Assembly: GCA_019459055.1 (NCBI GenBank)
Contig: JAIBEI010000046.1
Coordinates: forward strand, 1 to 40,004
Length of the DNA stretch: 40,004 nucleotides
Origin: Thiobacillus sp.
GTDB lineage: Bacteria; Pseudomonadota; Gammaproteobacteria; Burkholderiales; Thiobacillaceae
Reading direction: 5' to 3'
The position numbers and the translations under genes are program-made. The stretch's first letter is position 1; each line of letters starts with the position of its first letter. Under the pieces are notes generated by a model that did no database searches, was not told the DNA's origin, and saw nothing but the letters and a program-made list of their open reading frames with translations. Of this stretch, positions 82 through 14,403 are shown in pieces.

Positions 82-1533
82 TTACCCACCCAGCAACTGC
101 GCTGCCTGCCTATACCAGTCAGCGAGATACGGCGGAATGAACAGGCCCAGCATCAGCACCAGGCCCAGATGCAGGAACACCGGCGTCAACGCGGGCTGGT
201 AGGGCAGCTTTGCGGATTCGGTCTCGCCGAACACCATCGGCTGCACCTTGCCGAAGATGGAGGCAAACGCCACGCCCAGCGCCAGCAGCAGGAAGGGCGT
301 GGCCCAGGGATGATCGTGCATGGCGGTGGTGATGATGAGGAATTCGCTGGCGAACACGCCGAACGGCGGCACCCCGAGGATGGCGACGGTGCCCAGCATC
401 AGCCCCCAGCCGATGGTGGGGTTGGTCTTGATCAGCCCGCGGATGTCGACCATCAGCTGCGTGCCGGCCTTTTGCGTGGCGTGGCCGACGGCGAAGAAGA
501 TGGCGGACTTGGTGAGCGAGTGCATGGTCATGTGCAAGAGCGCGGCGAAGTTCGCCACTGCGCCGCCCATGCCGAAGGCGAAGGTGATGAGGCCCATGTG
601 CTCGATCGAGGAATAGGCGAACATGCGCTTGACGTCGGTCTGGCGCTTGATCAGAAAGGCGGCCAGCACCACCGACAGCAGGCCGAAGCCCATCATCAGG
701 TTGCCCGCCATCTCGTTGCCGAGCGCGCCGTCGACCAGCACCTTGGAGCGCATCACCGCGTACAGCGCGACGTTGAGTAACAGGCCGGAGAGCACGGCGG
801 ACACCGGCGTCGGGCCTTCTGCGTGGGCGTCCGGCAGCCAGCTGTGCAGCGGCGCCAGGCCCACTTTCGTGCCGTAGCCGACCAGCAGAAAGACGAAGGC
901 CAGCGACAGCACCGTCGGCTCCAGCTCGGTCTTGACGCCGTCCAGGTGGGTCCACAAGAGCGCGGTGCCGCCCGAGCCCAGCACCTTCTCCGCCGCGAAG
1001 TAGAGCAGGATGGTGCCGAACAGCGCCAGCGCGATGCCGACCCCGCACAGGATGAAGTATTTCCACGCCGCTTCCAGCGAGGCCGGGGTGCGGTACAGCG
1101 ACACCAGAAGCACGGTGGCCAGCGTCGCGGCTTCCATCGCCACCCACAGGATGCCCATGTTGTTGGTGGTCAAGGCCAGCAGCATGGCGGCGATGAAGAT
1201 CTGGTAGCTGCTGTGGTACAGGCGCAGCCGCTTGTCGTTGAGCTTGCCGTGCTCCGCCTCGATGCGCATGTAGGGGCGCGAGAAGAGGGCGGTGGTGAAG
1301 GCGACGAAAGCGGTCAACGCGACCAGGAAGACGTTGAACGAGTCGATGAAGAACCAGCCGCCGCCGACGGTCATCGGGCCGTTTTCGATGATGCGGTGCG
1401 TCAGCAGCGCGGCCGCCAGCAGCGTCAGCAAGCTGAACAGCGCGTTGATCTCCGGCGAATGTTTCCGGCAGCCCCACAGCGCCAGGAAGATTCCGCCGGT
1501 CAGCGGAATGCCGAGTAGCCAGTAAATTTCCAC
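82..1533 (-). CDS. hyfF: HyfF-like proton-translocating membrane subunit
   Basis: The 483-residue protein is almost entirely hydrophobic helices and belongs to the NuoL/NuoM/MrpD antiporter-like family, closest in layout to HyfF of hydrogenase-4. Visible family features include a conserved Glu/Lys-bearing core, KVGLAPLHSWLPDAHAEGPTPVSAVLSG followed (in separate stretch) by the RMFAYSSIEHMGL segment. E. coli HyfF is slightly longer (about 526). Translation starts at GTG 1533, four bases after the hyfE stop, with AAGGA about a dozen bases upstream inside hyfE. It is the last complete gene of the usp-sulP-hyfBCEF operon. Its role would be an ion-pumping module in the inner membrane; the redox partner is not in the window. 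Confidence 0.87.
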   Translation of the reverse strand: MEIYWLLGIPLTGGIFLALWGCRKHSPEINALFSLLTLLAAALLTHRIIENGPMTVGGGWFFIDSFNVFLVALTAFVAFTTALFSRPYMRIEAEHGKLNDKRLRLYHSSYQIFIAAMLLALTTNNMGILWVAMEAATLATVLLVSLYRTPASLEAAWKYFILCGVGIALALFGTILLYFAAEKVLGSGGTALLWTHLDGVKTELEPTVLSLAFVFLLVGYGTKVGLAPLHSWLPDAHAEGPTPVSAVLSGLLLNVALYAVMRSKVLVDGALGNEMAGNLMMGFGLLSVVLAAFLIKRQTDVKRMFAYSSIEHMGLITFAFGMGGAVANFAALLHMTMHSLTKSAIFFAVGHATQKAGTQLMVDIRGLIKTNPTIGWGLMLGTVAILGVPPFGVFASEFLIITTAMHDHPWATPFLLLALGVAFASIFGKVQPMVFGETESAKLPYQPALTPVFLHLGLVLMLGLFIPPYLADWYRQAAQLLGG

Positions 1534-1536
1534 GGC

Positions 1537-2199
1537 TTATTTTTCCTTGAGTTTTTCCATGTGCTTCAAGTCCAGCGAATCGAAAGTCTCGCGGATCTGG
1601 AAGATGAAGATGCCGAGTACGAAGACGCCGACCAGTACGTCGAGCGCCACCCCTAGTTCCACCACCAGCGGCATGCCGTAGGTGGCGCTGGTGGCGGCGA
1701 AGAACAGGCCGTTCTCCATCGCCAGGAAGCCGATCACCTGGGGGATCGCCTTGGTGCGGGTGATCATCATCAAAAAGGCGAGCAGCACGGTGGCCAGGGC
1801 GATGCCCAGGGTCGAGCGCGTCACCGTGCCGGACAGCTCCGAGATGGGCAGCGCCAGATTGAAGGCGAAAATCACCAGCACGATGCCGATCAGCATGGTG
1901 GTGGGGATGTTGATCATCGGCTCCACCACCCGGTTTACATTCAGCTTTCGCACCAGGCGGTAGAAGTACCAGGGCATGGCGATGACCTTGAGCACCAGGG
2001 TCAGCGCCGCCGAGTAATACAGGTGGTGCTGGCCGGTGGCCCAGGCGACGATGGCGGTGGACGTCGCCAGGGCCGCGCCCTGACAGGCGAACAGGGTCAC
2101 CAGCGCGACGACGCGGCGCTGCGACAGCATGGCGAAGGAGATCAGCAGCAGCAGCGCGGCGAGCAGGTTGACGACCTGAAGGTGGTAGGCCAGTGTCAT
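1537..2199 (-). CDS. hyfE: HyfE-like hydrogenase-4 membrane component
   Basis: This 220-residue, roughly seven-helix membrane protein matches HyfE in size and operon position. HyfE carries NuoK-like helices plus extra helices. The start at ATG 2199 is one base after the hyfC stop and the stop abuts the hyfF GTG, so translation is probably coupled. The C-terminus is charged and cytoplasmic (DSLDLKHMEKLKEK). Residues such as the TRTKAIPQVIGFLAMENG segment resemble the NuoK/MrpC signature region with its buried Glu. The subunit would form part of the proton path. Identification rests on family resemblance and context. Confidence 0.85.
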   Translation of the reverse strand: MTLAYHLQVVNLLAALLLLISFAMLSQRRVVALVTLFACQGAALATSTAIVAWATGQHHLYYSAALTLVLKVIAMPWYFYRLVRKLNVNRVVEPMINIPTTMLIGIVLVIFAFNLALPISELSGTVTRSTLGIALATVLLAFLMMITRTKAIPQVIGFLAMENGLFFAATSATYGMPLVVELGVALDVLVGVFVLGIFIFQIRETFDSLDLKHMEKLKEK

Positions 2200-2200
2200 C

Positions 2201-3145
2201 TCAAACCTCCAGCAGAAAATGAATCAGCATGCCCAGCACCGCCAGCAAAAAGGCGGTACCGAGAAACTCGGGTGCGCGGAACAGCCGCACCTTGGCCGAA
2301 ATCGTTTCGATGAAGGCCAGCACGGCGCCGCCGAGCAGAAGCTTCGCGACCATGGCCAGCAGCGCCAGCGGCAGTGCCGCGAGTTCCCCCCGCCCCGCAA
2401 TGCCCCACGGCAGGAACAGCGCGATGCCGAGCGCGGAATAGGTGAATAGCTTCAAGGCCACCGCCCATTCGATCAGCGCCAGGTGGCGGGCCGAGTACTC
2501 CAGGATCATGGCCTCGTGGATCATCGTCAGTTCGAGGTGGGTGCTCGGGTTGTCCACCGGGATGCGCGCGTTCTCCGCCACCGAGATCATCCAGAACGCC
2601 ACCGCCGCAAACGCCAGGCTGGGGTAGATGGCGAACTTCTGGTGCGCCAGGGTCTGCACGATGATGGGCAGTTCGGTCGACTGCGAGATCAGGCTGGCGG
2701 TGAAGAACACCATCAGGAGCGCCGGCTCGGCGAGGAAGGACACCAGCATCTCGCGGCGCGCGCCGAGGGTGCCGAACGAGGTGCCGATGTCCATCGCGGC
2801 CAGCGCCAGGAACACCCGCGCCAGGGCGAAGATGCCGACCAGCGCGATGACGTCGGCGGCGGGCGAGAACGGCAGGTCGTTCACGATGGTCGGCACGATG
2901 CCCGCGGCCAGCGCCATGCAGGCGAAGATCATGTAGGGCGCGAAGCGGAACAGCGGCGAGGCGTTGTGCGCGATCACCGCATCCTTGTGGAACAGCTTCT
3001 TCAGCGTGCGGTAGGGCTGGGTGATCGGGGGCGCGCTGCGGCCCTGCAGCCAGGCGCGGCACTGGTTGACCCAGCCCATCAGCAGGGGTGCCAGCAGGAT
3101 CGCCAGCAGGGTCTGGGCGAGTTGCAGAAGGATGCCGGTGCTCAT
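2201..3145 (-). CDS. hyfC: HyfC/HycD-like (NuoH-type) membrane subunit
   Basis: A 314-residue membrane protein of the complex I subunit 1 (NuoH/HycD/HyfC) family. The signature VAENARIPVDNPSTHLELTM around residue 200 matches the quinone-chamber/interface loop of this family, which anchors the hydrophilic arm to the membrane. The chosen ATG (3143-3145) overlaps the hyfB stop as ATGA; a longer frame upstream overlaps hyfB and is unlikely. Length agrees with E. coli HyfC (about 322). In the operon it follows hyfB and precedes hyfE with a 1-bp gap, the standard hyfBC-E order (hyfD is absent). Confidence 0.87.
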   Translation of the reverse strand: MSTGILLQLAQTLLAILLAPLLMGWVNQCRAWLQGRSAPPITQPYRTLKKLFHKDAVIAHNASPLFRFAPYMIFACMALAAGIVPTIVNDLPFSPAADVIALVGIFALARVFLALAAMDIGTSFGTLGARREMLVSFLAEPALLMVFFTASLISQSTELPIIVQTLAHQKFAIYPSLAFAAVAFWMISVAENARIPVDNPSTHLELTMIHEAMILEYSARHLALIEWAVALKLFTYSALGIALFLPWGIAGRGELAALPLALLAMVAKLLLGGAVLAFIETISAKVRLFRAPEFLGTAFLLAVLGMLIHFLLEV

Positions 3146-5160
3146 CGTGTTGTAAAGACCAGAAGGAAGATCAGGGTGGCGAAGCTGTAGATCAGGTACC
3201 ACTGGATGCGGCCGTGCTGCAGCCGCCCGGCCTGCTCAGACAGCCAGTTCGTCACGCGCGCGATGGGCACGTAGAAAATGAACCAGGCCTTGTCCAGCGA
3301 CGCGCCATGGTAGTGCGGGGAGCGCGAGAAGGGATCGGGGGTTTCCCGCTCCACCTTCATGAATACCTCGAAAATCTGCCGGATCGGCTGGCCGAAGCCC
3401 TCGGCGCTGTCCTGCATGCGCGCGTCCTGTTCCGGATAGCCGCAATCCCACGGGTCGCTGCGGCGCACCCGGCCGTGATAGACGCGGCGCACCCAGATGT
3501 AGGTGAGCAGCAGCACCACCCCTACCACTGCGAAGAAGATCAGCGGCGCGTAGCTCGCGCGCTCCGCCGAGACGGGTGCCAGCATCAGCCAGTTGCCGTC
3601 GTTCACCAGCGACTGGTTGGTCAGCAGGGACACCACCGGGGCCAGCCAGCCGATGACCTGGGTGGGAAACAGGCCCAGCAGCACGCATCCTGCCGCCAGC
3701 CAGAGCATGCCCAGGCGCTCCGGCCAGCCCGCCTCGTGCGCCTCGTGCAGCGCCGGATCGCGTGGCTGGCCGAGAAACACGATGCCGAAGAACTTGACCA
3801 TGACATAGGCGGCCAGCGCCGCGGCCAGCGCCACCGTGGCGGCGGCCACCGGGATCACCATGTTGAGGTAGGGCTGGGTCAGGCCGGGCGTCTGCAGGAA
3901 GGCCTGCAGCAGCAGCCATTCCGAGACGAAACCGTTCAAGGGCGGCAGGCCGGCGATCGCCAGCGCGCCGATCAGGGTCAGCCAGGCGGTCCATGGCATG
4001 AAGCGCATCAGCCCACCCAGGTGGCCCATGTGGCGCACGCCGGTGGCATGCAGAACCGAACCGGTGCCGACGAACAGCAGGCCCTTGAAGAAGGCATGGT
4101 TGAGCGCATGGTAGAGCAGCGCGGTGAGCGTCAGCGCGGCCAGCGCGCCCTTGCCGTCGGTGTAGAAGATCAGCGTGAGGCCGAAGGCGGCGAGCAGGAT
4201 GCCGATGTTTTCGATCGACGACCAGGCCAGCAGCCGCTTCATGTCCGACTGCACGGCGGCGAAGATCACGCCGTAGAGCGCAGTAATCAAACCGAGCGCC
4301 AGCGCCAGCGTGCCCCACCAGCCGATCTGGATGTTGAGCAGGTCGAAGGTCACCCGCAGCAGGCCATAGATGGCGGTCTTCAGCATCACCCCCGACATCA
4401 GCGCGGAAACCGGCGAGGGCGCGGCCGGGTGGGCTTCAGGCAGCCACACGTGGAGGGGCACCATGCCCGCCTTGGCGCCGAAGCCGAACAGCGCCAGCAG
4501 GTAGGCGGCCGAGGCCCAGAACGGCGTCATCTCGGCCATTCGCATAGTGTCGAAGGTGTAGTCGCCCTGGCCGCCCTGCAGCACGCCGAAGGTGAGCAGC
4601 AGCGAGATCGCGCCGACGTGCGCGATCAGCAGATAGAGAAATCCGGCGCGGCGGATTTCGGGAACCTTGTGGTCGGTGGTGACGAGGAAGTAGGACGACA
4701 GCGCCATCACTTCCCACGCCACCATGAAGGCATAGGCGTCGTTGGCCAGCAGCACGGTGACCATGCCGCCCAGGAACAGGTGGTACCACAGCGCCAGCAG
4801 CGCCAGCGGGCCGGCGGCCATGCTCTTGAAATAGCCGGACGCATACACCGTGATGCCGAACGCTGCGCCGCCCAGCAGCACCATGAAGAAGGCGGACAGG
4901 GCGTCCAGCCGCAGGTGGAAGGGCAGGTCGGGCAGCCCGATCGGCAGGATGATGGTGGAGGTAGGCAGCAGCAGCCCCGCGACGCCGACGCCGGCGATGA
5001 AGAGCGCGCCCAGCGCGCCCAGCGGAAACACCAGCCGGCTCAGCAGATGCGGCACTCGCTGCAGCAGCAGGGCCGCGAAGCCCAGCGCCAGCCAGAACAG
5101 CACGACGCCCCACGCCCATTGGACCGGTTCGAGGGGAAGCAGTGAAAATGTTTCCATCAT
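3142..5160 (-). CDS. hyfB: HyfB-like proton-translocating membrane subunit
   Basis: This is a 672-residue NuoL-type antiporter-like subunit, the same length as E. coli HyfB. It shows the family core KAGMVPLHVWLPEAHPAAPSP (split here as KAGMVPLHVW and LPEAHPAAPSP), LLAWSSIENIG, and a C-terminal extension with HyfB-type RRSDPWDCGYPEQ. Two adjacent ATGs (5158-5160 and 5155-5157) are possible starts; a longer frame to 5205 has no support. It lies 75 bp downstream of sulP and overlaps hyfC by ATGA. No hyfA ferredoxin gene precedes it, so this is a reduced hyf-like cluster rather than the full E. coli operon. Confidence 0.88.
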   Translation of the reverse strand: MMETFSLLPLEPVQWAWGVVLFWLALGFAALLLQRVPHLLSRLVFPLGALGALFIAGVGVAGLLLPTSTIILPIGLPDLPFHLRLDALSAFFMVLLGGAAFGITVYASGYFKSMAAGPLALLALWYHLFLGGMVTVLLANDAYAFMVAWEVMALSSYFLVTTDHKVPEIRRAGFLYLLIAHVGAISLLLTFGVLQGGQGDYTFDTMRMAEMTPFWASAAYLLALFGFGAKAGMVPLHVWLPEAHPAAPSPVSALMSGVMLKTAIYGLLRVTFDLLNIQIGWWGTLALALGLITALYGVIFAAVQSDMKRLLAWSSIENIGILLAAFGLTLIFYTDGKGALAALTLTALLYHALNHAFFKGLLFVGTGSVLHATGVRHMGHLGGLMRFMPWTAWLTLIGALAIAGLPPLNGFVSEWLLLQAFLQTPGLTQPYLNMVIPVAAATVALAAALAAYVMVKFFGIVFLGQPRDPALHEAHEAGWPERLGMLWLAAGCVLLGLFPTQVIGWLAPVVSLLTNQSLVNDGNWLMLAPVSAERASYAPLIFFAVVGVVLLLTYIWVRRVYHGRVRRSDPWDCGYPEQDARMQDSAEGFGQPIRQIFEVFMKVERETPDPFSRSPHYHGASLDKAWFIFYVPIARVTNWLSEQAGRLQHGRIQWYLIYSFATLIFLLVFTTR

Positions 5161-5235: not shown

Positions 5236-7356
5236 TCATGCAGCCGGCTTGATCGCGCAGAACAAGTCCTCTGCCGCTTCTTCGCCCAGTTGCTCGTAGA
5301 TCGCGGCAATCGCCTGGTCCACCGTGGCGAACAGCTTGTCCTGCCCGATCGTCTCGAACAGACCGGTGGCGCGCATCACATCCAGCACCTGTTTTTTCAG
5401 GCCGCTGAATACCAGGGTGATCCCCGCGGCGTGCAGGCGTTCGACCAGGTGATGAATGACCTCCTCGCCCGACGCGTCCAGCTGGTTGATGGCGTCGCCC
5501 ACCACCAGGACGTATTTGGCTTCGGGATTCTTGGATACGGCCTCCAGCACTGCGTCCTCGAAGTAGGAGACGTTGGCGAAGTACAGCGAGCCGTCGAAGC
5601 GGATCGCCACCACGTGCTTGCTGGTGGGCAGATCCGGATTCACCCTGAGGTCGCGTAGCGTGCCGTCCTTGTAGCGGCCGAGAATGGCGACGCGCGGCGA
5701 CATGGTGCGATACAGGTAGAGGCCCAGCGCCAAACCCGCGCCGACCATGATGCCCTTGTCCAGATGCGGGGCGAAGGCCAGCGTGGAAACGAAGGTGACG
5801 CCCGCGGCGATGCCGTCGTGGCGGCTGGCCTGCCAGGCATGCTTCACCGCCTTGAAGTTCACCAGGCCAATCACCGCCATGATGATGATGGCGGCCAGCA
5901 CGGCCTGCGGCAGGTGGTACAGCAGCGGGGTGAGGAACAGCAGCGCGACCAGCACGATCAGCGCGGTGATCACCGAGCTCATGCCGGTTTTGGCGCCGGC
6001 ATTCATGTTGACGGCCGTGCGCGAGAACGAGCCCGAGACCGGGAATGCCTGGGAGAAGCTGCCGACCATGTTGGCAAGGCCTTGGCCGATCAGCTCCTGG
6101 TTGGGGTCGATGCGGTCCTTGGTTCTGGCCGCAACGGCCTTGGCGATGGAGATGGCTTCCATGAAGCCCACCAGCGAAATCACCAGGGCGGCGGACAGCA
6201 GCGAACCCAGCGCATCGAGGTTGAGGCTGGGCATCTGGATGCTGGGCAGGCCTTCCGGGATGGCGCCCACCACCTCGCCGCCGCCCACCAGCTTGAAGCC
6301 TTCGGCGTTGAGCTTGCGCAGGCGGTAGCGGGTCTCGTCCAGCGTCACGCCCTGTGGCGCCCGCTCGGCCGAATAAATCGCCAGGGTCGTGCCGTCCGCG
6401 TCCGTGCTGCGCACCACCTGCAGGTAGCGCAGTGCCGCCTTTTCCTTGGCGAAAGCCGCTTCCGCATCGCGCAGCTTGATTCGCAGCAGTGCCAGTTCAG
6501 CCTCCATTTGCACGGCGTTGACGTTGTTTCCATTGGTTTTTTCGGCGGCTTTCAGCGCGGACGATTTGCTGGAGATCTGCGTATTCAGGTCGTCCACCTG
6601 CTTCGCCGCAGCCATGTTCTGCTGCACCACGACCTGCAGCTGCGGGTCGGCGATCTGCTCCAGCGAGCCGTTGGCGTTGCGTTCGAAGCCGATCGACCAG
6701 GACAGCAGCGTCGTCACCACCACCGCGATCAGCACCCCGGGCAGCTTGGGGGCGTATTTCCTGATGCCCCACATCAGCGCGATGGCCAGGATGCCCATCG
6801 CCAGCGTCGGCATGTGGGTGTCGCCGATCTGTTTCAACACGCCGACGATGTCGTTGATGAAGTGCTCGCTGCGCCCCATCGGCACGCCGAACAGCTTGGA
6901 CACCTGCGACAGGCCGATGATGATGGCCGCCGCGTTGGTGAAGCCGACGATCACCGGATGCGACAGGAAGTTGACGATCACCCCCAGCTTGAACACGCCG
7001 AGCAGCAGCTGAATGATGCCCACCACCAGCGACAGCATGATGGCCAGCGCGATGAACTGGTCGGAGCCCGGCGCCGCCAGCACCGCCAGCGACGAGGCCG
7101 TCAGCAGGGACACCACCGCCACCGGCCCTGTGCCGAGCTGGCTCGAGCTGCCCCACAGGGCCGCCACCGCCACCGGCAGGAAGGCCGCGTACAGCCCGTA
7201 GTACGCCGGCAGCCCGGCCAGTTGCGCGTAGGCCATCGACTGCGGAATCAGCACCAGGGCCACGGTCAGGCCCGCCATGAAGTCGGCCCTCAGTACGTCG
7301 CCTTTCATGGGGAACCAGCGCAGGAAGGGCAGGAATTTGATCAGGAAGGCGGGCAT
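5236..7356 (-). CDS. SulP family anion transporter with inserted coiled coil
   Basis: A 706-residue SulP/SLC26 transporter. The N-terminal membrane domain has the family stretches LVLIPQSMAYAQLAGLP (residues 34-50), YGLYAAFLP and LGTGPVAVVS, and a C-terminal cytoplasmic STAS domain occupies about 590-690. SulP proteins carry sulfate, bicarbonate or other anions; the substrate cannot be read from sequence. Residues about 225-358 form an unusual hydrophilic, Ala/Lys/Glu-rich insertion with coiled-coil character just before the IPxGLP motif; the second SulP in this window has only about ten residues there. ATG 7354-7356 aligns with the usual SulP N-terminus; the longer frame upstream overlaps the usp-like gene. 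It sits between a usp-like gene and hyfB in one operon. Confidence 0.9.
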   Translation of the reverse strand: MPAFLIKFLPFLRWFPMKGDVLRADFMAGLTVALVLIPQSMAYAQLAGLPAYYGLYAAFLPVAVAALWGSSSQLGTGPVAVVSLLTASSLAVLAAPGSDQFIALAIMLSLVVGIIQLLLGVFKLGVIVNFLSHPVIVGFTNAAAIIIGLSQVSKLFGVPMGRSEHFINDIVGVLKQIGDTHMPTLAMGILAIALMWGIRKYAPKLPGVLIAVVVTTLLSWSIGFERNANGSLEQIADPQLQVVVQQNMAAAKQVDDLNTQISSKSSALKAAEKTNGNNVNAVQMEAELALLRIKLRDAEAAFAKEKAALRYLQVVRSTDADGTTLAIYSAERAPQGVTLDETRYRLRKLNAEGFKLVGGGEVVGAIPEGLPSIQMPSLNLDALGSLLSAALVISLVGFMEAISIAKAVAARTKDRIDPNQELIGQGLANMVGSFSQAFPVSGSFSRTAVNMNAGAKTGMSSVITALIVLVALLFLTPLLYHLPQAVLAAIIIMAVIGLVNFKAVKHAWQASRHDGIAAGVTFVSTLAFAPHLDKGIMVGAGLALGLYLYRTMSPRVAILGRYKDGTLRDLRVNPDLPTSKHVVAIRFDGSLYFANVSYFEDAVLEAVSKNPEAKYVLVVGDAINQLDASGEEVIHHLVERLHAAGITLVFSGLKKQVLDVMRATGLFETIGQDKLFATVDQAIAAIYEQLGEEAAEDLFCAIKPAA

Positions 7357-7391: not shown

Positions 7392-7787
7392 TCAGGTGGG
7401 TTTCTTGTCGTGTGTCGCCGCGGTCACCAGCGGGCAGGCGAGATGCTTCCACGGGTCGCTGCTGCGGTCCTGGGCCAGCGCTTCCCAGCCTTCGCGCGAG
7501 TCGATCACCACCGCCGCGATGTGCTCGTGGGCGTTGGCGTAGTCGACCAGGTCGCGTCGGCGCAGGCTGGGTTTTACGTCCAGGCTGAAAGGCAGGCCCG
7601 CCTCGCGCAGCGAATCGAGGAAATCGGCCATCTCGGCCGGCGGCGTTTCGCCGGCGGCGATGACCTGGATCTCCAGGTCGGCCTCGAGACGGCGGCAAAG
7701 CGACAGCGCCGAGGTCAGCAGGCGCGGATCCACATGCCCTTCGCGGACGGCGAGCAGTACGGTTCGTTGTTTGCCGGGGTGGGTCAT
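7392..7787 (-). CDS. Universal-stress-like small protein
   Basis: A 131-residue soluble protein with the beginning of a Usp/Rossmann-like alpha/beta pattern (RTVLLAVREGHVDPRLLTSALS, given as two parts RTVLLAVREG and HVDPRLLTSALS; then LEIQVIAAG, and VVIDSREGWEAL). The ATP-binding G-x2-G-x9-G(S/T) motif of canonical Usp proteins is not present. It is the first gene of the operon, starts about 26 nt after the predicted sigma54 transcription start, and is 35 bp upstream of sulP. Usp-like proteins paired with SulP transporters occur twice in this window, suggesting a regulatory or accessory role to the transporter. Family assignment is moderate. Confidence 0.6.
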   Translation of the reverse strand: MTHPGKQRTVLLAVREGHVDPRLLTSALSLCRRLEADLEIQVIAAGETPPAEMADFLDSLREAGLPFSLDVKPSLRRRDLVDYANAHEHIAAVVIDSREGWEALAQDRSSDPWKHLACPLVTAATHDKKPT

Positions 7788-7822
7788 TCCAGGGCGCTGG
7801 TTCTTATTGGGACGCTTCCTTT

Positions 7823-7839
7823 AAGCAGCAAGCGTGCCA
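7823..7839 (-). promoter_or_regulatory. Predicted sigma54 (-24/-12) promoter of usp-sulP-hyf operon
   Basis: On the minus strand the sequence TGGCACGCTTGCTGCTT matches the sigma54 consensus TGGCACG-N4-TTGC(A/T) with one mismatch. GG (7838-7837) and GC (7826-7825) are separated by exactly 10 bp as required. The start of transcription would fall near 7813, about 26 nt before the usp-like ATG. A sigma54 activator gene lies divergently next to it, which strongly supports function. Confidence 0.78.
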
Positions 7840-7917
7840 GTGGAGATATTTCAGACCAAGCGCATGAACAATCAGGGAAATGCGGCAAAGCAAACACTCC
7901 GAATCGCTTCCAGACTG

Positions 7918-7930
7918 TTGCATAGTGCAA
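7918..7930. promoter_or_regulatory. Inverted repeat TTGCA-N3-TGCAA, candidate activator site 1
   Basis: The perfect repeat TTGCA-TAG-TGCAA lies about 93-105 bp upstream of the -12 element of the sigma54 promoter, a normal distance for an upstream activating sequence. An identically spaced copy occurs at 8041-8053. Binding by the adjacent activator is inferred. Confidence 0.5.
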
Positions 7931-7983
7931 TTGTTTGGTCGTTTGCCCGGGAAGCGCCCGTCCCGGGTGGGTATCAGAACATT

Positions 7984-8002
7984 GTTAAATCTAGGTTAAG
8001 CG
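7984..8002 (-). promoter_or_regulatory. TTAA box (11-bp direct/inverted repeat), copy 1
   Basis: On the minus strand CGCTTAAC-N5-TTTAAC; on the plus strand two GTTAA hexamers 11 bp apart. It matches the more perfect boxes at 10699-10719 and 14552-14572. All three lie upstream of usp-like genes. This copy has one arm mismatch and no recognisable -35 beside it. Confidence 0.4.
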
Positions 8003-8040
8003 ACATTTTCTTCCTGGGTGTTGCAATTAGTGTGCATAAA

Positions 8041-8053
8041 TTGCAAATTGCAA
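8041..8053. promoter_or_regulatory. Inverted repeat TTGCA-N3-TGCAA, candidate activator site 2
   Basis: TTGCA-AAT-TGCAA repeats the format of site 1. Further TTGCA words flank it: TTGCAA at 8021-8026, exactly 20 bp upstream, and TTGCA at 8057-8061. It lies 48 bp before the activator ATG, so it could also serve autoregulation. Confidence 0.48.
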
Positions 8054-8100
8054 CAATTGCAGGCATGCTGCGACCTTCTGCACGAATGACCGGAGGGCGC

Positions 8101-9459
8101 ATGACGGGCGGCAGGCTTCTGATCGTGGACGACGAAAAGGTCGCCCTGAAAAACCTCGAACAGGTGATGAAAAAAGCGGGCTACGCGGTCACCGCCACCC
8201 AGAGCGGCGGCAATGCGCTCGTCCTGCTGGAGAAACAGCCTTTCGACGTGGTGCTCTCCGAGCTGCGCATGGACAAGGTGGACGGCATGCAGATCCTCAG
8301 GCGCTGCCGCGAAAACCATCCCGACACCGAGGTCATCCTGGTCACCGGACAGGCCACGCTGGCGTCTGCCGTCGAGGCGATGAAGCAGGGCGCTTTCCAC
8401 TACCTGGCCAAGCCGTATCGCCAGGAGGAGGTGCGCCAGATGGTGGCCGATGCGCTGGAAAAAATCCGCCTCCGGCACGAAAGCCGCAATCTCAAAAAGC
8501 AGGTGGAAAGCTACCAAGGCAAAGTACGCATCCTCACCCAGGATCGGCACATGCAGCATCTTCTCGATATGGCGAGGCAGGTTGCGCCGACCGACTGCAA
8601 CATCCTCATCACCGGCGAATCCGGCACCGGCAAGGAGCTTTTCGCCCGCTACCTGCACCACCAGAGCGGGCGCGAATCCGGCCCCTTCGTGGCGGTGAAC
8701 TGCGGCGCCTTCAACGAGGATTTGCTGGCCAACGAACTGTTCGGGCACATCAAGGGCGCGTTCACCGGCGCCCACGCCGACAAAAAAGGGCTGCTGGAAG
8801 CGGCCAGCGGCGGCACCCTGTTTCTGGACGAGATCACCGAAATGTCGCCCACCATGCAGGTCAAGCTGCTGCGCGTGATCCAGGAAAAGGAAGTGCTGCC
8901 GCTGGGCGCCACCGCGCCGGTCAAAATCGACGCGCGCTTCATCGCCGCCACCAACCGCGACGTGCAGGACATGGTGAAGCAGGGAGGCTTCCGCCAGGAT
9001 CTCTTCTTCCGCCTCAACGTCGTCAACCTGCACATCCCCGCCTTGAGCGCGCGCAAGGAAGACGTGCCGCTGCTCGCCCACCATTTCCTGGCGAAGCATG
9101 CCGCGCTGATGAGCAAGGATGTCAGCGAGATTGCCCCGGATACCCTCGACCTGCTGTGCGCCTACGATTTTCCCGGCAACGTGCGCGAGCTCGAAAACAT
9201 CATCGAGCGCGGCGTCGCGATCGCCACCGGCCACGGCATCGACCCCGCGCAGCTGCCCGACGACCTGCGCGAACTCGCCATCCGCACCTTTCGCAAGAAG
9301 GCCGGGCGCATCCCCACCCTGGAAGAGCAGGAACAGGACTACATCTCCTGGGTGCTGCAGGAAGCCGGCGGCAACCAGACCCTCGCCGCGCAGGTTCTCG
9401 GCATCGATCGCGTGTCGCTATGGCGTAAGCTGAAGCGCTATGAGGTGGAGAAGGGATAA
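8101..9459 (+). CDS. Sigma54-dependent activator with Glu at receiver phospho-site
   Basis: A 452-residue NtrC-family protein: receiver (1-115), AAA+ domain (about 143-380) with Walker A GESGTGKE (172-179), sigma54 contact loop GAFTGA (219-224) and Walker B TLFLDE, then a Fis-type helix-turn-helix (about 405-448). The receiver keeps the acidic pocket (D10, D11), T82 and K104, but the phosphoacceptor position is Glu54 (codon GAG) where NtrC has Asp54. ATG 8101 is preceded by GGAGG at about five bases; a longer frame from 7834 would read through the promoter region. No cognate kinase is adjacent. It is divergent from the usp-sulP-hyf operon and is its likely regulator, possibly constitutively active. 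Confidence 0.93.
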   Translation: MTGGRLLIVDDEKVALKNLEQVMKKAGYAVTATQSGGNALVLLEKQPFDVVLSELRMDKVDGMQILRRCRENHPDTEVILVTGQATLASAVEAMKQGAFHYLAKPYRQEEVRQMVADALEKIRLRHESRNLKKQVESYQGKVRILTQDRHMQHLLDMARQVAPTDCNILITGESGTGKELFARYLHHQSGRESGPFVAVNCGAFNEDLLANELFGHIKGAFTGAHADKKGLLEAASGGTLFLDEITEMSPTMQVKLLRVIQEKEVLPLGATAPVKIDARFIAATNRDVQDMVKQGGFRQDLFFRLNVVNLHIPALSARKEDVPLLAHHFLAKHAALMSKDVSEIAPDTLDLLCAYDFPGNVRELENIIERGVAIATGHGIDPAQLPDDLRELAIRTFRKKAGRIPTLEEQEQDYISWVLQEAGGNQTLAAQVLGIDRVSLWRKLKRYEVEKG

Positions 9460-10764: not shown

Positions 10765-12597
10765 ATGTATGCCGCACACGCCCGCACAGGCGCTTCACGT
10801 TTTTCCTTCGATTGGTCCAGGCTATTTCCCTTCCTGCGCTGGCGCGACCGGGTGACGCGTGCCAGCACGCGCGACGATGCCATGGCCGGGCTGACGGGGT
10901 CGCTGATCGTGCTGCCGCAGGCGGTGGCCTTCGCCACCATTGCCGGCCTGCCGCCAGAATATGGCCTGTATGCGGCGATGACGCCGGCCATCATCGCCGC
11001 CCTGTTTGGATCGAGCTGGCACCTCGTGTCGGGCCCCACCACCGCCATTTCCATTGCCGTATTCGCTTCGGTGAGCCCTTATGCCCCGCCGGGCTCGCCG
11101 GAATTCATCGGCCTGGTGCTGACGCTGACCTTCCTGACCGGCTTGTTCCAACTGGTCCTGGGTTTGGCGCGCATGGGCGTGCTGGTAAATTTCATTTCGC
11201 ATACCGTGGTGATCGGGTTCACCGCGGGTGCGGCGCTGCTCATCGCCGGCAGCCAGATCAAGAACTTCTTCGGCGTGGACATCCCGCGCGGCACGCCTTT
11301 CTTCAAGACGCTGGAACTGCTCGCGCTGCAGCTTGACCGCATCAACCCTTACGTACTGGCGGTGAGCCTGACGACGCTGGCGGTCGGCATCCTGACCAAA
11401 CGCTACGCGCCCAAACTGCCCTACATGATTGTCGCGATGGTGGCGGGCAGCCTGTTCGCGGCAGGCATCAACGCCTATTACGGCGTGGATACGACCCATG
11501 TCGGCACGGTCGGTGCGCTGCCTTCCGGCTTGCCGCCGCTGTCCCTGCCGGACTTTTCATTCCACAGCCTGTCGCAGATGATGTTTCCAGCGCTGATCAT
11601 CACCATGCTGGCGCTGACCGAGGCGGTGTCGATTTCCCGCGCCATCGCCACCCGTTCCGGCCAGAACATCGACGGCAACCAGGAGTTCATCGGCCAGGGG
11701 CTTTCCAATATCGTCGGCAGCTTCTTCTCCGGCTATGCCGCCTCCGGCTCGTTCAACCGCAGCGGTGTCAACTATGCTGCCGGTGCGAGGACGCCGCTGG
11801 CGGCGGTGTATGCCTCGCTGTTCCTGGTAGTGATTCTGCTTTTGGTGGCTCCGCTGGCGGCTTATCTGCCGAACGCCGCCATGGCCGGCATCCTGTTCCT
11901 GGTGGCTTGGGGCCTGATCGACAGCCACCACATTCGATTGTTGCCCCGTATCAGCAAGCAGGAGACCGTGGTGTTGTGGGTCACCCTGATCGGGACGCTG
12001 ATCGACCTTGAAAAGGGCATCTTCTTCGGCATTGCCCTGTCGCTGGCGCTGTATTTGTACCGTACCTCACGTCCGACACTGGAAGTGGTGGTGCCGGATT
12101 CTGACCCGGAGAGCTATCACTACGTTCATGCCGACGGCCATCCGGAATGCCCGCAGATCAAGATGGTGCGGCTGAGCGGTTCCATTTTCTTCGGAGCCGT
12201 CGCCCATCTGCAACAGCGCTTGCAGGAGATGCAGGAAGCGGCGCCGCATCAGAAACACCTGGTGGTGATGGCCAGCGGCATCAATTTCGTCGACCTGGCC
12301 GGCGCCGAGTTTCTCGCCGAAACCGCCCGGCGCTATGCCCGCGACGGTGGCAGCCTGAGCTTCTACCGGATGAAGGAAAGCGTGGCCGAGACCCTGCGCA
12401 AGGGCGGCTTCATGCAGGACATCGGCGAACACAACCTCTACCCGGCCAGGTCCCGGCCGGCGGAAGCGATTTTCCCGCGCCTCGACAAAACCATTTGCGC
12501 GAGCTGTCCGCATCGCCTGTTCCGCCACTGTCAAACAGTCAACCGCCAGGCGGAAAACACGCATCAACACACGCTGACTGAGGGAGCCCTGCCATGA
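10765..12597 (+). CDS. SulP family anion transporter, Cys-tailed
   Basis: A 610-residue SulP/SLC26 transporter with the expected LIVLPQAVAFATIAGLPP segment (residues 47-64), a membrane domain to about 430 and a C-terminal STAS domain containing HLVVMASGINFVDLAGAE. Start ATG 10765 has GGAG seven bases upstream. After the STAS domain is a hydrophilic tail with CASCPHRLFRHC (C578, C581, C589) not typical of the family. The usp gene overlaps its stop by ATGA. A gamma-carbonic anhydrase lies convergently downstream, which favours bicarbonate as substrate, although sulfate or another anion is equally allowed by the family. Confidence 0.9.
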   Translation: MYAAHARTGASRFSFDWSRLFPFLRWRDRVTRASTRDDAMAGLTGSLIVLPQAVAFATIAGLPPEYGLYAAMTPAIIAALFGSSWHLVSGPTTAISIAVFASVSPYAPPGSPEFIGLVLTLTFLTGLFQLVLGLARMGVLVNFISHTVVIGFTAGAALLIAGSQIKNFFGVDIPRGTPFFKTLELLALQLDRINPYVLAVSLTTLAVGILTKRYAPKLPYMIVAMVAGSLFAAGINAYYGVDTTHVGTVGALPSGLPPLSLPDFSFHSLSQMMFPALIITMLALTEAVSISRAIATRSGQNIDGNQEFIGQGLSNIVGSFFSGYAASGSFNRSGVNYAAGARTPLAAVYASLFLVVILLLVAPLAAYLPNAAMAGILFLVAWGLIDSHHIRLLPRISKQETVVLWVTLIGTLIDLEKGIFFGIALSLALYLYRTSRPTLEVVVPDSDPESYHYVHADGHPECPQIKMVRLSGSIFFGAVAHLQQRLQEMQEAAPHQKHLVVMASGINFVDLAGAEFLAETARRYARDGGSLSFYRMKESVAETLRKGGFMQDIGEHNLYPARSRPAEAIFPRLDKTICASCPHRLFRHCQTVNRQAENTHQHTLTEGALP

Positions 12598-13046
12598 AAA
12601 CTTATCGCCGTATTCTGGTGCCCCTCACCGCTGGCGGCCAAAGCGACACCCTGCTGCATCGCGCCGCCGAGCTTGCTCAAGGCCCGCGCACGCAAATGCT
12701 GGTGCTGCGCGTGCTTGACACCCGCAGCGGCTTTGCACCGGATGGTCCGGCTCCCGCACTGCCGGGAGAAACAGCCTCACGACGCGCGCCAGACGTGAAG
12801 AAAAGGCTTGAATCGCAACTGGCGCGCAACAACCTGGGCTGGGCGGAAGCCAAAGTGGTGTGGGGGGATTCGAAGGCTTTGCTGGCCGACGTCATTCGCA
12901 CCTGGGAACCTGATCTCGTCGTTGCGTGCGCGGGTCAACTGCCCCACGGGATCCTGGAACATGCGGATGTCCTGACAGTGGACCGCCGCAGCTTGTTCAG
13001 GCGCCTGGCCGAGGCCTTGCATTATCCGGCGCCCCGGCACGCCTGA
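12594..13046 (+). CDS. Universal-stress-like protein paired with SulP
   Basis: A 150-residue Usp-fold protein beginning MKTYRRILVPLTAGGQS, with the central DLVVACAGQ strand. It is clearly paralogous to the minus-strand usp-like protein at 13939-14403: both share RILxPxT, VLDTRSxFxxDGPA and a VxWGxxxALxAxxIRxWxPDLV pattern. Neither has the C-terminal glycine-rich ATP-binding motif. The ATG overlaps the sulP stop (ATGA), so the two are translationally coupled. The conserved DTRS-F-DGPA insert distinguishes this pair from ordinary Usp proteins. Confidence 0.75.
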   Translation: MKTYRRILVPLTAGGQSDTLLHRAAELAQGPRTQMLVLRVLDTRSGFAPDGPAPALPGETASRRAPDVKKRLESQLARNNLGWAEAKVVWGDSKALLADVIRTWEPDLVVACAGQLPHGILEHADVLTVDRRSLFRRLAEALHYPAPRHA

Positions 13047-13149
13047 CGGGTTTCCGGTCGCCCGGCATGGGTTGGCTTGACGCGGCGGACGCAATGCCGC
13101 GCTTGCAGTAAAAGATATCTGATCGCTCTCGCCAGCATGCCGCCCATTC

Positions 13150-13248
13150 ATGCACGACCCCGAAGCCATTTCCGTACTCGTCATCGAAATAGTCGGGATC
13201 TTGCGGCAAACATTGCCGACGATCTGGAACCCCGGGGCTATCTGTTGC
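13150..13248 (+). pseudogene. Frameshifted N-terminal fragment of a response regulator
   Basis: From ATG 13150 the frame reads SVLVIE and, after a one-base deletion near 13188, continues in the next frame as SRDLAANIADDLEPRGYL. This aligns with residues of the intact OmpR-family regulator at 17884-18591 (SVLVVEDSADLAANIADYLESHGHL). The similarity stops abruptly a few bases before the terminator at 13254. About 33 codons of a receiver N-terminus remain, so this is debris of a paralogous two-component gene. Confidence 0.7.
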
Positions 13249-13253
13249 CCCAT

Positions 13254-13280
13254 AAAAAAACCCGCAGCAGCGGGTTTTTT
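13254..13280. terminator. Bidirectional terminator between usp and carbonic anhydrase
   Basis: CCCGC-AGCA-GCGGG flanked by seven A on the left and six T on the right, so it can end transcription from both directions. Confidence 0.82.
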
Positions 13281-13286
13281 CGTGGG

Positions 13287-13847
13287 TTAAAACTCGTTGC
13301 GGATACGTTTGTAGCCCCTGACCAGCTCGTGGTTGGCCTGCGCCACGCTTTCGGAGAATCCTGTCACATCGGGGGTCACGCGCTCGATGCGGGCCAGTTC
13401 CTCGTCCGAGTGGATGTTGCAGGTGGAGGGAATGTAGAAGCCGTCGGGCACGCTGCAGCCTTCGACCACCGAGTTGTGGCGCACCACCGATCCCTCGCCC
13501 ACCACACAGTTGAACAGCACCGAATTGAAGCCGATGAACACGCGGTTTCCCACCTTGCAGGGGCCGTGCACGATCGAGCGGTGGGCGATCGACGTGTATT
13601 CGCCGATTTCCACCCGCCCACCGGCCTTGGAGTGGATGACCACGCCGTCCTGGATGTTCGAGTGCGCGCCGATGACGATCGGTTCCATGTTGCCGTTCTC
13701 ATCGACCTCGTCTGCACGAATAACCGCGTAGGGGCCGATAAAGACATTCTCGCCGATGATGATGTGGCCACAGAGGATGGCGGTGGGGTCGACAAAAGCG
13801 GTTTCGTGCACGACCGGCAGGTCGCCTCGCGGGTTGCGGCGAATCAT
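13287..13847 (-). CDS. Gamma-class carbonic anhydrase (Cam-like)
   Basis: A 186-residue left-handed beta-helix protein of hexapeptide repeats. The zinc ligands of Methanosarcina Cam are matched by H72 (GVVIHS), H89 and H94 (IAHRSIVHG, H-x4-H). R44, Q66 and D67 match other Cam active-site positions, and an acidic loop (EVDENGNMEP) follows IRADE as in Cam. No signal peptide is present, so it should act in the cytoplasm, interconverting CO2 and bicarbonate. It lies 91 bp downstream of a usp-like gene in one minus-strand unit and faces a SulP gene. A carbonic anhydrase activity is likely but some relatives are inactive. Confidence 0.85.
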   Translation of the reverse strand: MIRRNPRGDLPVVHETAFVDPTAILCGHIIIGENVFIGPYAVIRADEVDENGNMEPIVIGAHSNIQDGVVIHSKAGGRVEIGEYTSIAHRSIVHGPCKVGNRVFIGFNSVLFNCVVGEGSVVRHNSVVEGCSVPDGFYIPSTCNIHSDEELARIERVTPDVTGFSESVAQANHELVRGYKRIRNEF

Positions 13848-13938
13848 GGTGTATTCCTTGTGGTTGCAAGATGGAAAAACAGGTGGTCGCCGGCCTGGGG
13901 CGTGCCCCGATCAGCCGGCGCGCGGGGGCACGGAGCGG

Positions 13939-14403
13939 TCAGGCATGCTCCTGCGCGTACGGAAAGAATAACCCGGCCAGACGCGTGAAAGCGCCGTCGC
14001 GCCCGATCGTCATCAGCGCCGGCCCTTCGCGGTCCGTGCGCGCCGGCAGCAGGCGGCGCGTCCGGCCGTCGCACAAGACCAGATCGGGGCACCAGCTGCG
14101 GATCAGGGCCGCCAGGGCGCTGCGCGGCTCGCCCCAGATCACCGTGGCATTCGCCTGATTCAAGCCGTGCCGCTTCAGGTCGTGCTCGAGCCGTTTTTGC
14201 TCGGGCGGCGCGAGGCGGGCGGCACGTTCGCCGGGCAGCGAGCCGGCCGGGCCGTCCGAATCGAAACTGGAGCGGGTGTCGAGTACGCTCACCACCAGAA
14301 GCTCGACCTCTTGTGAGGCGGCGATCTCGCCGGCGCGGCGAAGCAGGGCCGAACCGCTATGGCCATGCGTGAAGGGGATCAGGATGCGTTGACGGGTGTT
14401 CAT
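13939..14403 (-). CDS. Universal-stress-like protein upstream of carbonic anhydrase
   Basis: A 154-residue Usp-like protein, paralogue of the one at 12594-13046 (shared RILIPFTHGHSGSALLRRA-type start, VLDTRSSFDSDGPAG, VIWGEPRSALAALIRSW, PDLVLC). The C-terminal ATP motif is missing. GGAG lies eight bases before ATG 14403. The promoter with a TTAA box is about 150 bp upstream, leaving a long leader. It and the carbonic anhydrase form a two-gene unit opposed to the sulP-usp pair. Confidence 0.75.
   Translation of the reverse strand: MNTRQRILIPFTHGHSGSALLRRAGEIAASQEVELLVVSVLDTRSSFDSDGPAGSLPGERAARLAPPEQKRLEHDLKRHGLNQANATVIWGEPRSALAALIRSWCPDLVLCDGRTRRLLPARTDREGPALMTIGRDGAFTRLAGLFFPYAQEHA

Follow-up and report, generated by a model that had tools for sequence, protein, structure and literature searches.

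A sigma54 activator with a natural glutamate at its phospho-acceptor position and a lost kinase: candidate control of a Thiobacillus SulP-hyf operon

How might an operon remain under the control of an NtrC-type activator when that activator carries glutamate at the position a kinase would phosphorylate, and when the kinase gene found beside it in many relatives is absent? This question is raised by a locus of Thiobacillus sp. (contig JAIBEI010000046.1) in which a sigma54-type promoter faces an operon encoding a SulP-family transporter and hyf-like membrane subunits, with the activator gene in divergent orientation. We analysed a stretch of 40,004 nt, hereafter called the window, together with related loci from other genomes. 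The features that bear on the argument are collected in Table 1.

Table 1. Features of the SulP-hyf operon, its upstream region and the divergent activator gene (positions in the window)
Feature	Position	Strand	Remarks
HyfF-like subunit	82..1533	-	contig ends here
HyfE-like subunit	1537..2199	-	90.2 bits, under the NCBIfam cut-off of 136
NuoH/HyfC-like membrane subunit	2201..3145	-	
HyfB-like antiporter-type membrane subunit	3142..5160	-	
SulP-family anion transporter with STAS domain	5236..7356	-	~130-residue insert in membrane domain
First operon gene	7392..7787	-	131 aa; ATG at 7787; named usp in the sequence-only reading
-24/-12 sigma54 promoter element TGGCACGCTTGCTGCT	7824..7839	-	one mismatch to consensus; GG/GC spacing 10 nt
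Operator 1 GTTGCATAGTGCAAT	7917..7931		consensus GTTGC-N5-GCAAC; centre about -111 from predicted start; at most one mismatch in 8/8 orthologues
TTAA-N7-TTAA element	7985..7999		between both operators; conserved
Conserved half site TGTTGCAAT	8019..8027		TGCAACA on the other strand in 8/8
Operator 2 ATTGCAAATTGCAAC	8040..8054		~123 bp upstream of operator 1; at most one mismatch in 8/8 orthologues
Activator leader	8055..8100	+	kinase position in L121 and other relatives; kinase absent here
NtrC-type activator	8101..9459	+	receiver 7-115, sigma54 AAA+ domain 145-310, Fis-type HTH 406-447
Activator codon 54	8260..8262	+	GAG (Glu) replacing the phospho-acceptor Asp

Promoter, operators and layout of the locus

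The element facing the operon departs from the sigma54 consensus TGGCACGN4TTGCW at a single position, is read on the minus strand from 7839 to 7824 with its GG and GC 10 nt apart, and is kept in 8/8 close orthologues, in agreement with the near-consensus -24/-12 element that a sequence-only reading of this DNA had proposed. The distance of 26 nt to the first gene given in that reading has to be reassigned: the element itself ends 36 nt before the ATG, and 26 nt fits the interval between the ATG and the transcription start, which is predicted near 7813. Scanning the window with a loose consensus (at most two mismatches) yielded 21 matches against 25.85 expected, so that such matches are no rarer than chance would have it; motif score alone was dropped as proof of a promoter, and the case for the promoter rests on conservation.

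A search of 61 genomes gave 45 SulP matches, and conservation was scored at 30 of these loci. In the 8/8 closest loci (SulP 85-100% identical) an element with one or two mismatches is placed 476-495 bp ahead of the SulP match, a position at which 0/22 remaining SulP loci have one; L024 and L031 have matches with two mismatches, but at other positions, and in L035 84 bp of upstream sequence could be scanned for the element. The genome encodes RpoN, with a single match to the RpoN DNA-binding family PF04552 (G000:C21, E 8.8e-66).

Two TTGCA-N3-TGCAA repeats had also been pointed out upstream of the promoter, and both are present, at 7918-7930 and 8041-8053. An alignment of eight intergenic regions extends each of them to a conserved 15-bp unit, GTTGC-N5-GCAAC, of which the shorter repeat is the inner part. 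Elsewhere in the same genome the exact unit occurs at two sites (C37:501 and C39:23022), and the compound pattern TTGCN5GCAA-N55..85-TGGCAN7TGC, which joins the dyad to the promoter, occurs once, at this locus, with 0 matches to the reversed control. Across 61 genomes the compound pattern gave 27 matches and its reversed form 1. Sixteen of the 27 have an orthologue of this activator or of its kinase as a neighbour, and the remaining 11 are not next to any activator orthologue; in 8 of the 16, orthologues of both kinase and activator (the latter 62-65% identical) form a pair that is divergent from another gene. Phylogenetic footprinting across the orthologous regions and the recurrence of the same operator beside orthologous activators support the proposal, already made in the sequence-only reading, that the adjacent activator controls the operon through sigma54, and we infer that it does so by binding these operators; that reading had overlooked both Glu54 and the loss of the kinase. 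In another lineage of the genus, L087:8730-11521 and similar loci have the kinase-activator pair divergent from a gene that is preceded by the same operator and by a promoter of the sigma54 type, and in one such locus examined this gene encodes a DUF599 protein.

The layout had been taken as unfamiliar, but other loci, most of them betaproteobacterial, show it next to SulP-hyf genes as well, there with a kinase gene included. The mapping covered 22 of the best 80 of 86 relatives. Besides L121 and L122, a sigma54-type element (at most two mismatches) lies upstream of the kinase gene and points away from it in 12 of the 22 mapped loci (L129, L130, L132-L135, L138, L142, L150, L152, L153 and L178), and 10 of these 12 also hold the dyad (at most one mismatch) in the same intergenic stretch, L133 being without a dyad and the only dyad of L135 overlapping the promoter. 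SulP and then HyfB follow in the direction of the element in eight loci (L129, L132-L135, L138, L150 and L178). L155 has no element at up to two mismatches, yet matches the compound pattern, and no sigma54 element was found in L139, L140, L157 and L158 or in the short contigs L136 and L137; L151 has a perfect -24/-12 element with no kinase gene between it and the activator gene. Since the arrangement of activator, kinase, promoter and SulP is shared with other loci, it is probably ancestral and not special to this genome. The gene maps of the relatives were made with a codon-usage caller trained on the genes of the window, which fails at the AT-rich loci L136, L137, L139, L140 and L151, and these were read from the list of open reading frames. 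The L132 contig, with its kinase-activator pair, SulP and HyfB, is labelled Bordetella parapertussis, a label that is probably wrong.

Residue 54 of the activator and the missing kinase

The divergent gene had been recognised as that of an NtrC-type activator, which its receiver-AAA+-Fis architecture bears out; the GAFTGA and Walker A motifs are intact. The receiver matches the profile PF00072 (E 1.6e-27) with the phospho-acceptor aspartate replaced, which places it among the aspartate-less receivers or pseudo-receivers, and the protein falls outside the canonical response regulators in having Glu54 for the phospho-acceptor Asp and no cognate histidine kinase encoded. Because Asp54 is replaced by Glu, the activator is not phosphorylatable at the usual site. 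Residue 54 could be read in 75 of the 81 rows that the window and the best 80 of 86 relatives make up (6/81 were unreadable); 12 of these 75 have Glu, 62 have Asp and 1 has Asn. The Glu54 loci are the window, L122-L128, L131, L141, L148 and L177, and the dyad-plus-promoter pattern is present in 12/12 of them within this set. In L148, which is from a metagenome assembly, the frame of the activator is broken near the C-terminus.

The kinase of the relatives has the domain order HAMP-HisKA-HATPase. A homologue of the G006 kinase lies within 1 kb of the activator gene in 0/12 Glu54 loci and in 44/62 Asp rows, again among the window and the best 80 of 86 relatives, and in 34/38 of those Asp rows that reach 50% identity (rounded). 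The other 18/62 Asp rows include 14 below 50% identity; L137 is an Asp row without a kinase, but with only 58 bp of upstream sequence. L136, L140 and L151, two of them in Nitrospirota, have Asp54 orthologues with no kinase gene adjoining the activator gene, and the absence of an adjacent kinase therefore does not force Glu54. In a further set of regions, which overlaps with the set of 80 relatives, a kinase gene is found directly upstream of the activator gene in 21/21 Asp-type and 0/7 Glu-type regions (window included).

No orthologous kinase was found elsewhere in the genome of the window, where the best match is 39% identical, is confined to the catalytic part and has another NtrC-like gene next to it. 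The corresponding search returned partial matches of 38-43% in G032 and, in G001, a 51% paralogue adjoining a second, Asp-type activator; in four of the 7 Glu-type genomes searched there was no kinase match at E 1e-30. One Glu54 locus, L141, retains 109 bp of the 3' end of the kinase gene, 87% identical to L121 (E 1e-26), and this stretch adjoins the kinase's own 5' leader (57 bp, 91%). We read the L141 fragment as a remnant of a kinase deletion.

A maximum-likelihood tree was built from 30 hand-picked rows (the window, 25 of the best 80 of 86 relatives and 4 further relatives), with L148, owing to its broken frame, and L177, which is cut by a contig end, excluded here and from the domain-rate counts. 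Ten Glu forms make up one clade (support 87/64), with L141 as its first branch and L121 (G006; Asp, with kinase) as its sister, and 88% of 200 bootstrap trees imply a single change at residue 54. Glu54 probably arose once, which makes its link with the loss of the kinase one event that could be a coincidence. Compared with G006, the window is 96-98% identical in the first gene, SulP, HyfB, HyfC and HyfF and 89% in HyfE; the activators are 88% identical, a contrast suggesting that recombination probably separated the histories of regulator and operon. The kinase-activator pair of G006 may have been kept or regained.

What Glu54 may do

The explanation that we consider likely is that the activator, bound at the operators, drives the sigma54 promoter of the SulP-hyf operon and that, the two-component kinase having been lost, a natural phosphomimetic Glu54 keeps the switch working. 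Ancestrally, the activator would have been the response regulator of a two-component system with the kinase gene directly upstream of its own gene; in the Thiobacillus lineage of this genome the kinase gene would then have been deleted and Asp54 changed to Glu, a residue that probably keeps the activator active as if phosphorylated, with no need of the kinase. From GTTGC-N5-GCAAC operators ~110 and 230 bp upstream it would drive the promoter of the usp-like gene, sulP and hyfBCEF, together with hyfG and hyfI in the relatives. We infer constitutive activity of the Glu54 form, the operon thereby being constitutively on or set by the level of the activator instead of by the old signal.

The way in which the receiver has evolved bears on whether the glutamate does any work. 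In a comparison of hand-picked near relatives (10/12 Glu rows and 12/62 Asp rows), 186 columns are fixed within both the 10 Glu and the 12 Asp activators, and residue 54 is the only one of them that differs between the groups. The ratio of mean divergence in the receiver to that in the ATPase domain is 2.46 in the Glu group, against 0.99 and 0.78 in two Asp groups. Variable columns number 65/115 in the receiver and 67/248 in the ATPase domain of the Glu group (Fisher p = 9.5e-8), against 37/115 and 76/248 (p = 0.81) and 22/115 and 61/248 (p = 0.28) in the Asp groups, p values that describe the contrast and not the number of events, since the columns are not independent of the tree. Distances to the outgroup L129 are 0.122 for L121, 0.139 for L141 and 0.275 on average for the Glu forms in the receiver, and 0.214 for L121 and 0.221 for the Glu forms in the ATPase domain. 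Such faster evolution of the receiver would suit the view that Glu54 is a passenger in a domain decaying after kinase loss, the output being due to de-repression or to the AAA+ domain by itself and the promoter still depending on sigma54 and the activator. The same view gains from Thr82, a part of the usual activation pathway of receivers, which is Ala or Ser in 5/12 Glu54 loci and whose loss argues against a strictly canonical phosphomimetic state at those loci. The retention of Glu54 is in itself weak evidence, because 50/115 receiver columns, Glu54 among them, are invariant in the Glu group anyway. We nevertheless consider a passenger unlikely: the glutamate is retained in 12/12 loci despite changes between GAA and GAG (5 and 5 of 10 full-length rows), no other column is fixed for different residues in the two groups, the acidic pair and Lys104 are each retained in 11/12 Glu54 loci, and receiver dN is well under synonymous divergence (dN/pS 0.43).

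The conservation of operator 2, ~50 bp before the activator start, and that of the TTAA-N7-TTAA element, which is exact in 11/12 Glu54 loci and L121 and in 1/13 other kinase-bearing loci examined, would fit a transfer of control from phosphorylation to amount, with a constitutively active activator whose own gene is transcribed under the influence of the operators (autoregulation), the TTAA-N7-TTAA element or both; a LysR-type or other factor might bind the element. We regard this account, which is compatible with the preferred one, as possible without being probable, for the element is also found in L121, where the kinase is still present, and it was missing at both cbbL promoters examined as a check on its possible reading as a CbbR-type motif. 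Alternatively, a partner protein or a ligand could have taken the place of the kinase in controlling the activator, Glu54 then being permissive and not constitutive. A partner protein reportedly activates the dephosphorylated DctD of Vibrio (PMC9040800), and other modes of regulation are described as possible for pseudo-receivers (PMC12632262). The gene downstream of the activator differs among the 7 Glu54 maps, in which no shared new partner gene was recognised, and this makes a replacement of the kinase quite improbable in our view.

For the preferred reading, in which a phosphomimetic Glu54 took over from the kinase, living relatives hold the precursor form, a form with a kinase remnant, a decaying receiver and an intact target promoter. 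An instructive parallel is the D54E form of NtrC of enteric bacteria, a laboratory mutant reportedly described by Klose, Weiss and Kustu in 1993, in which the change is said to imitate the kinase's signal. NtrC D54E resembles the present activator in its Glu for the phospho-Asp, in the residue number and in the domain order. It differs in its laboratory origin, since the present form occurs naturally throughout a clade in which the kinase gene has been deleted. On balance we lean, if only slightly, towards a kinase deletion that was fixed together with the Asp54-to-Glu change and that turned an inducible SulP-hyf switch into a locked-on one-component activator, a natural re-run of NtrC D54E. 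In the portions of two papers on aspartate-less receivers and pseudo-receivers that we drew on, Glu is the commonest replacement and the characterised cases are mostly orphans (PMC4395418, PMC12632262); Glu can be phosphomimetic in many regulators, and has been disproved in some as the source of pseudo-receiver activity (PMC12632262). The present receiver shares with those the missing phospho-Asp, and it differs from the known pseudo-receivers treated there (PMC4395418, PMC12632262) by its close Asp-plus-kinase sister, the kinase remnant, the target promoter with operators and the single fixed difference.

The operon and inorganic carbon

The operon of the window is cut by the end of the contig, and hyfG of the same genome, encoding a 49-kDa/30-kDa-like subunit 95% identical to HyfG of G006, lies on a second contig, at its end (G000:C49:5533-7080 of 7155). 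In the relatives the operon extends further to hyfG and then hyfI, so that the linked hyf-like genes include those for 49-kDa/30-kDa-like and 20-kDa-like subunits. The first gene is 83-98% identical across 7 close relatives. Searches against Pfam (E up to 1) and NCBIfam (E up to 0.001) found no family for it; its earlier identification as usp is unconfirmed. In five of six close relatives for which the hyfI end is covered, that stretch also carries cbb genes. G006, G032 and G001 have cbbL, cbbS (named by position), cbbQ and cbbO there, G002 and G015 have cbbO alone, and G025 has no cbb gene on it. Relatives of the locus include several Thiobacillus, e.g., T. denitrificans RG.

HyfG of one relative (L071:41-1591) has four scattered cysteines and no CxxC pair, and thus lacks the NiFe-binding cysteine pairs that mark the large subunit of Group 4 NiFe hydrogenases; judging from this subunit, the complex is probably not a hydrogenase. 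HyfI of the same relative (L071:1679-2212) retains a CxxC. In the energy-converting hydrogenase-related (Ehr) complexes, too, Hyf/complex I-like membrane and 49-kDa subunits occur without the usual NiFe cysteine motifs; in contrast to Ehr, the hyf-like genes considered here are linked to SulP and cbb genes.

SulP proteins transport various anions. Bicarbonate would be the substrate here, judging from the cbb neighbourhood and from SulP bicarbonate transporters of other organisms, and the SulP-hyf operon is probably an inorganic-carbon uptake module, in which SulP would import bicarbonate and the hyf-like subunits would perhaps give ion coupling. According to two sources, a SulP transporter encoded near carboxysome or RuBisCO genes can take up inorganic carbon, as can multisubunit membrane complexes of chemolithoautotrophs (PMC12628692, PMC10880623), and of two T. 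pelophila SulP proteins tested, only one restored E. coli growth at low CO2 (PMC12628692). Compared with the systems covered there, the SulP gene of the window is linked to hyf-like genes and preceded by a sigma54 promoter; the main text of neither paper contains the word 'sigma' (PMC12628692, PMC10880623).

Several further SulP observations belong to this neighbourhood. The SulP protein of the operon has an insert of ~130 residues at residues about 229-361, inside the sulfate-transporter domain, and in three Thiobacillus relatives (L072, L075 and L077) sulP and hyfB are separated by an additional gene for a SulP-type transporter. Adjoining the activator gene on its other side, positions 10765-14403 of the window hold a second SulP gene, two Usp-type genes, the second of them assigned by similarity only, and a hexapeptide-repeat gene (Pfam Hexapep), which we take to be of the gamma carbonic anhydrase type.

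In a literature search at the level of titles and the beginnings of abstracts, no description came up of a SulP-hyf operon controlled by sigma54, or of a natural activator with Asp changed to Glu and a remnant of its kinase gene. The locus may represent a natural bacterial switch locked on. Among close orthologues that have a likely target promoter are the form with the kinase (L121), the form with the remnant (L141) and further derived ones, so that a single promoter assay can test the hypothesis. Beyond this genome, sigma54 two-component control of SulP-hyf operons, near RuBisCO genes in several relatives, points to a recurring scheme.
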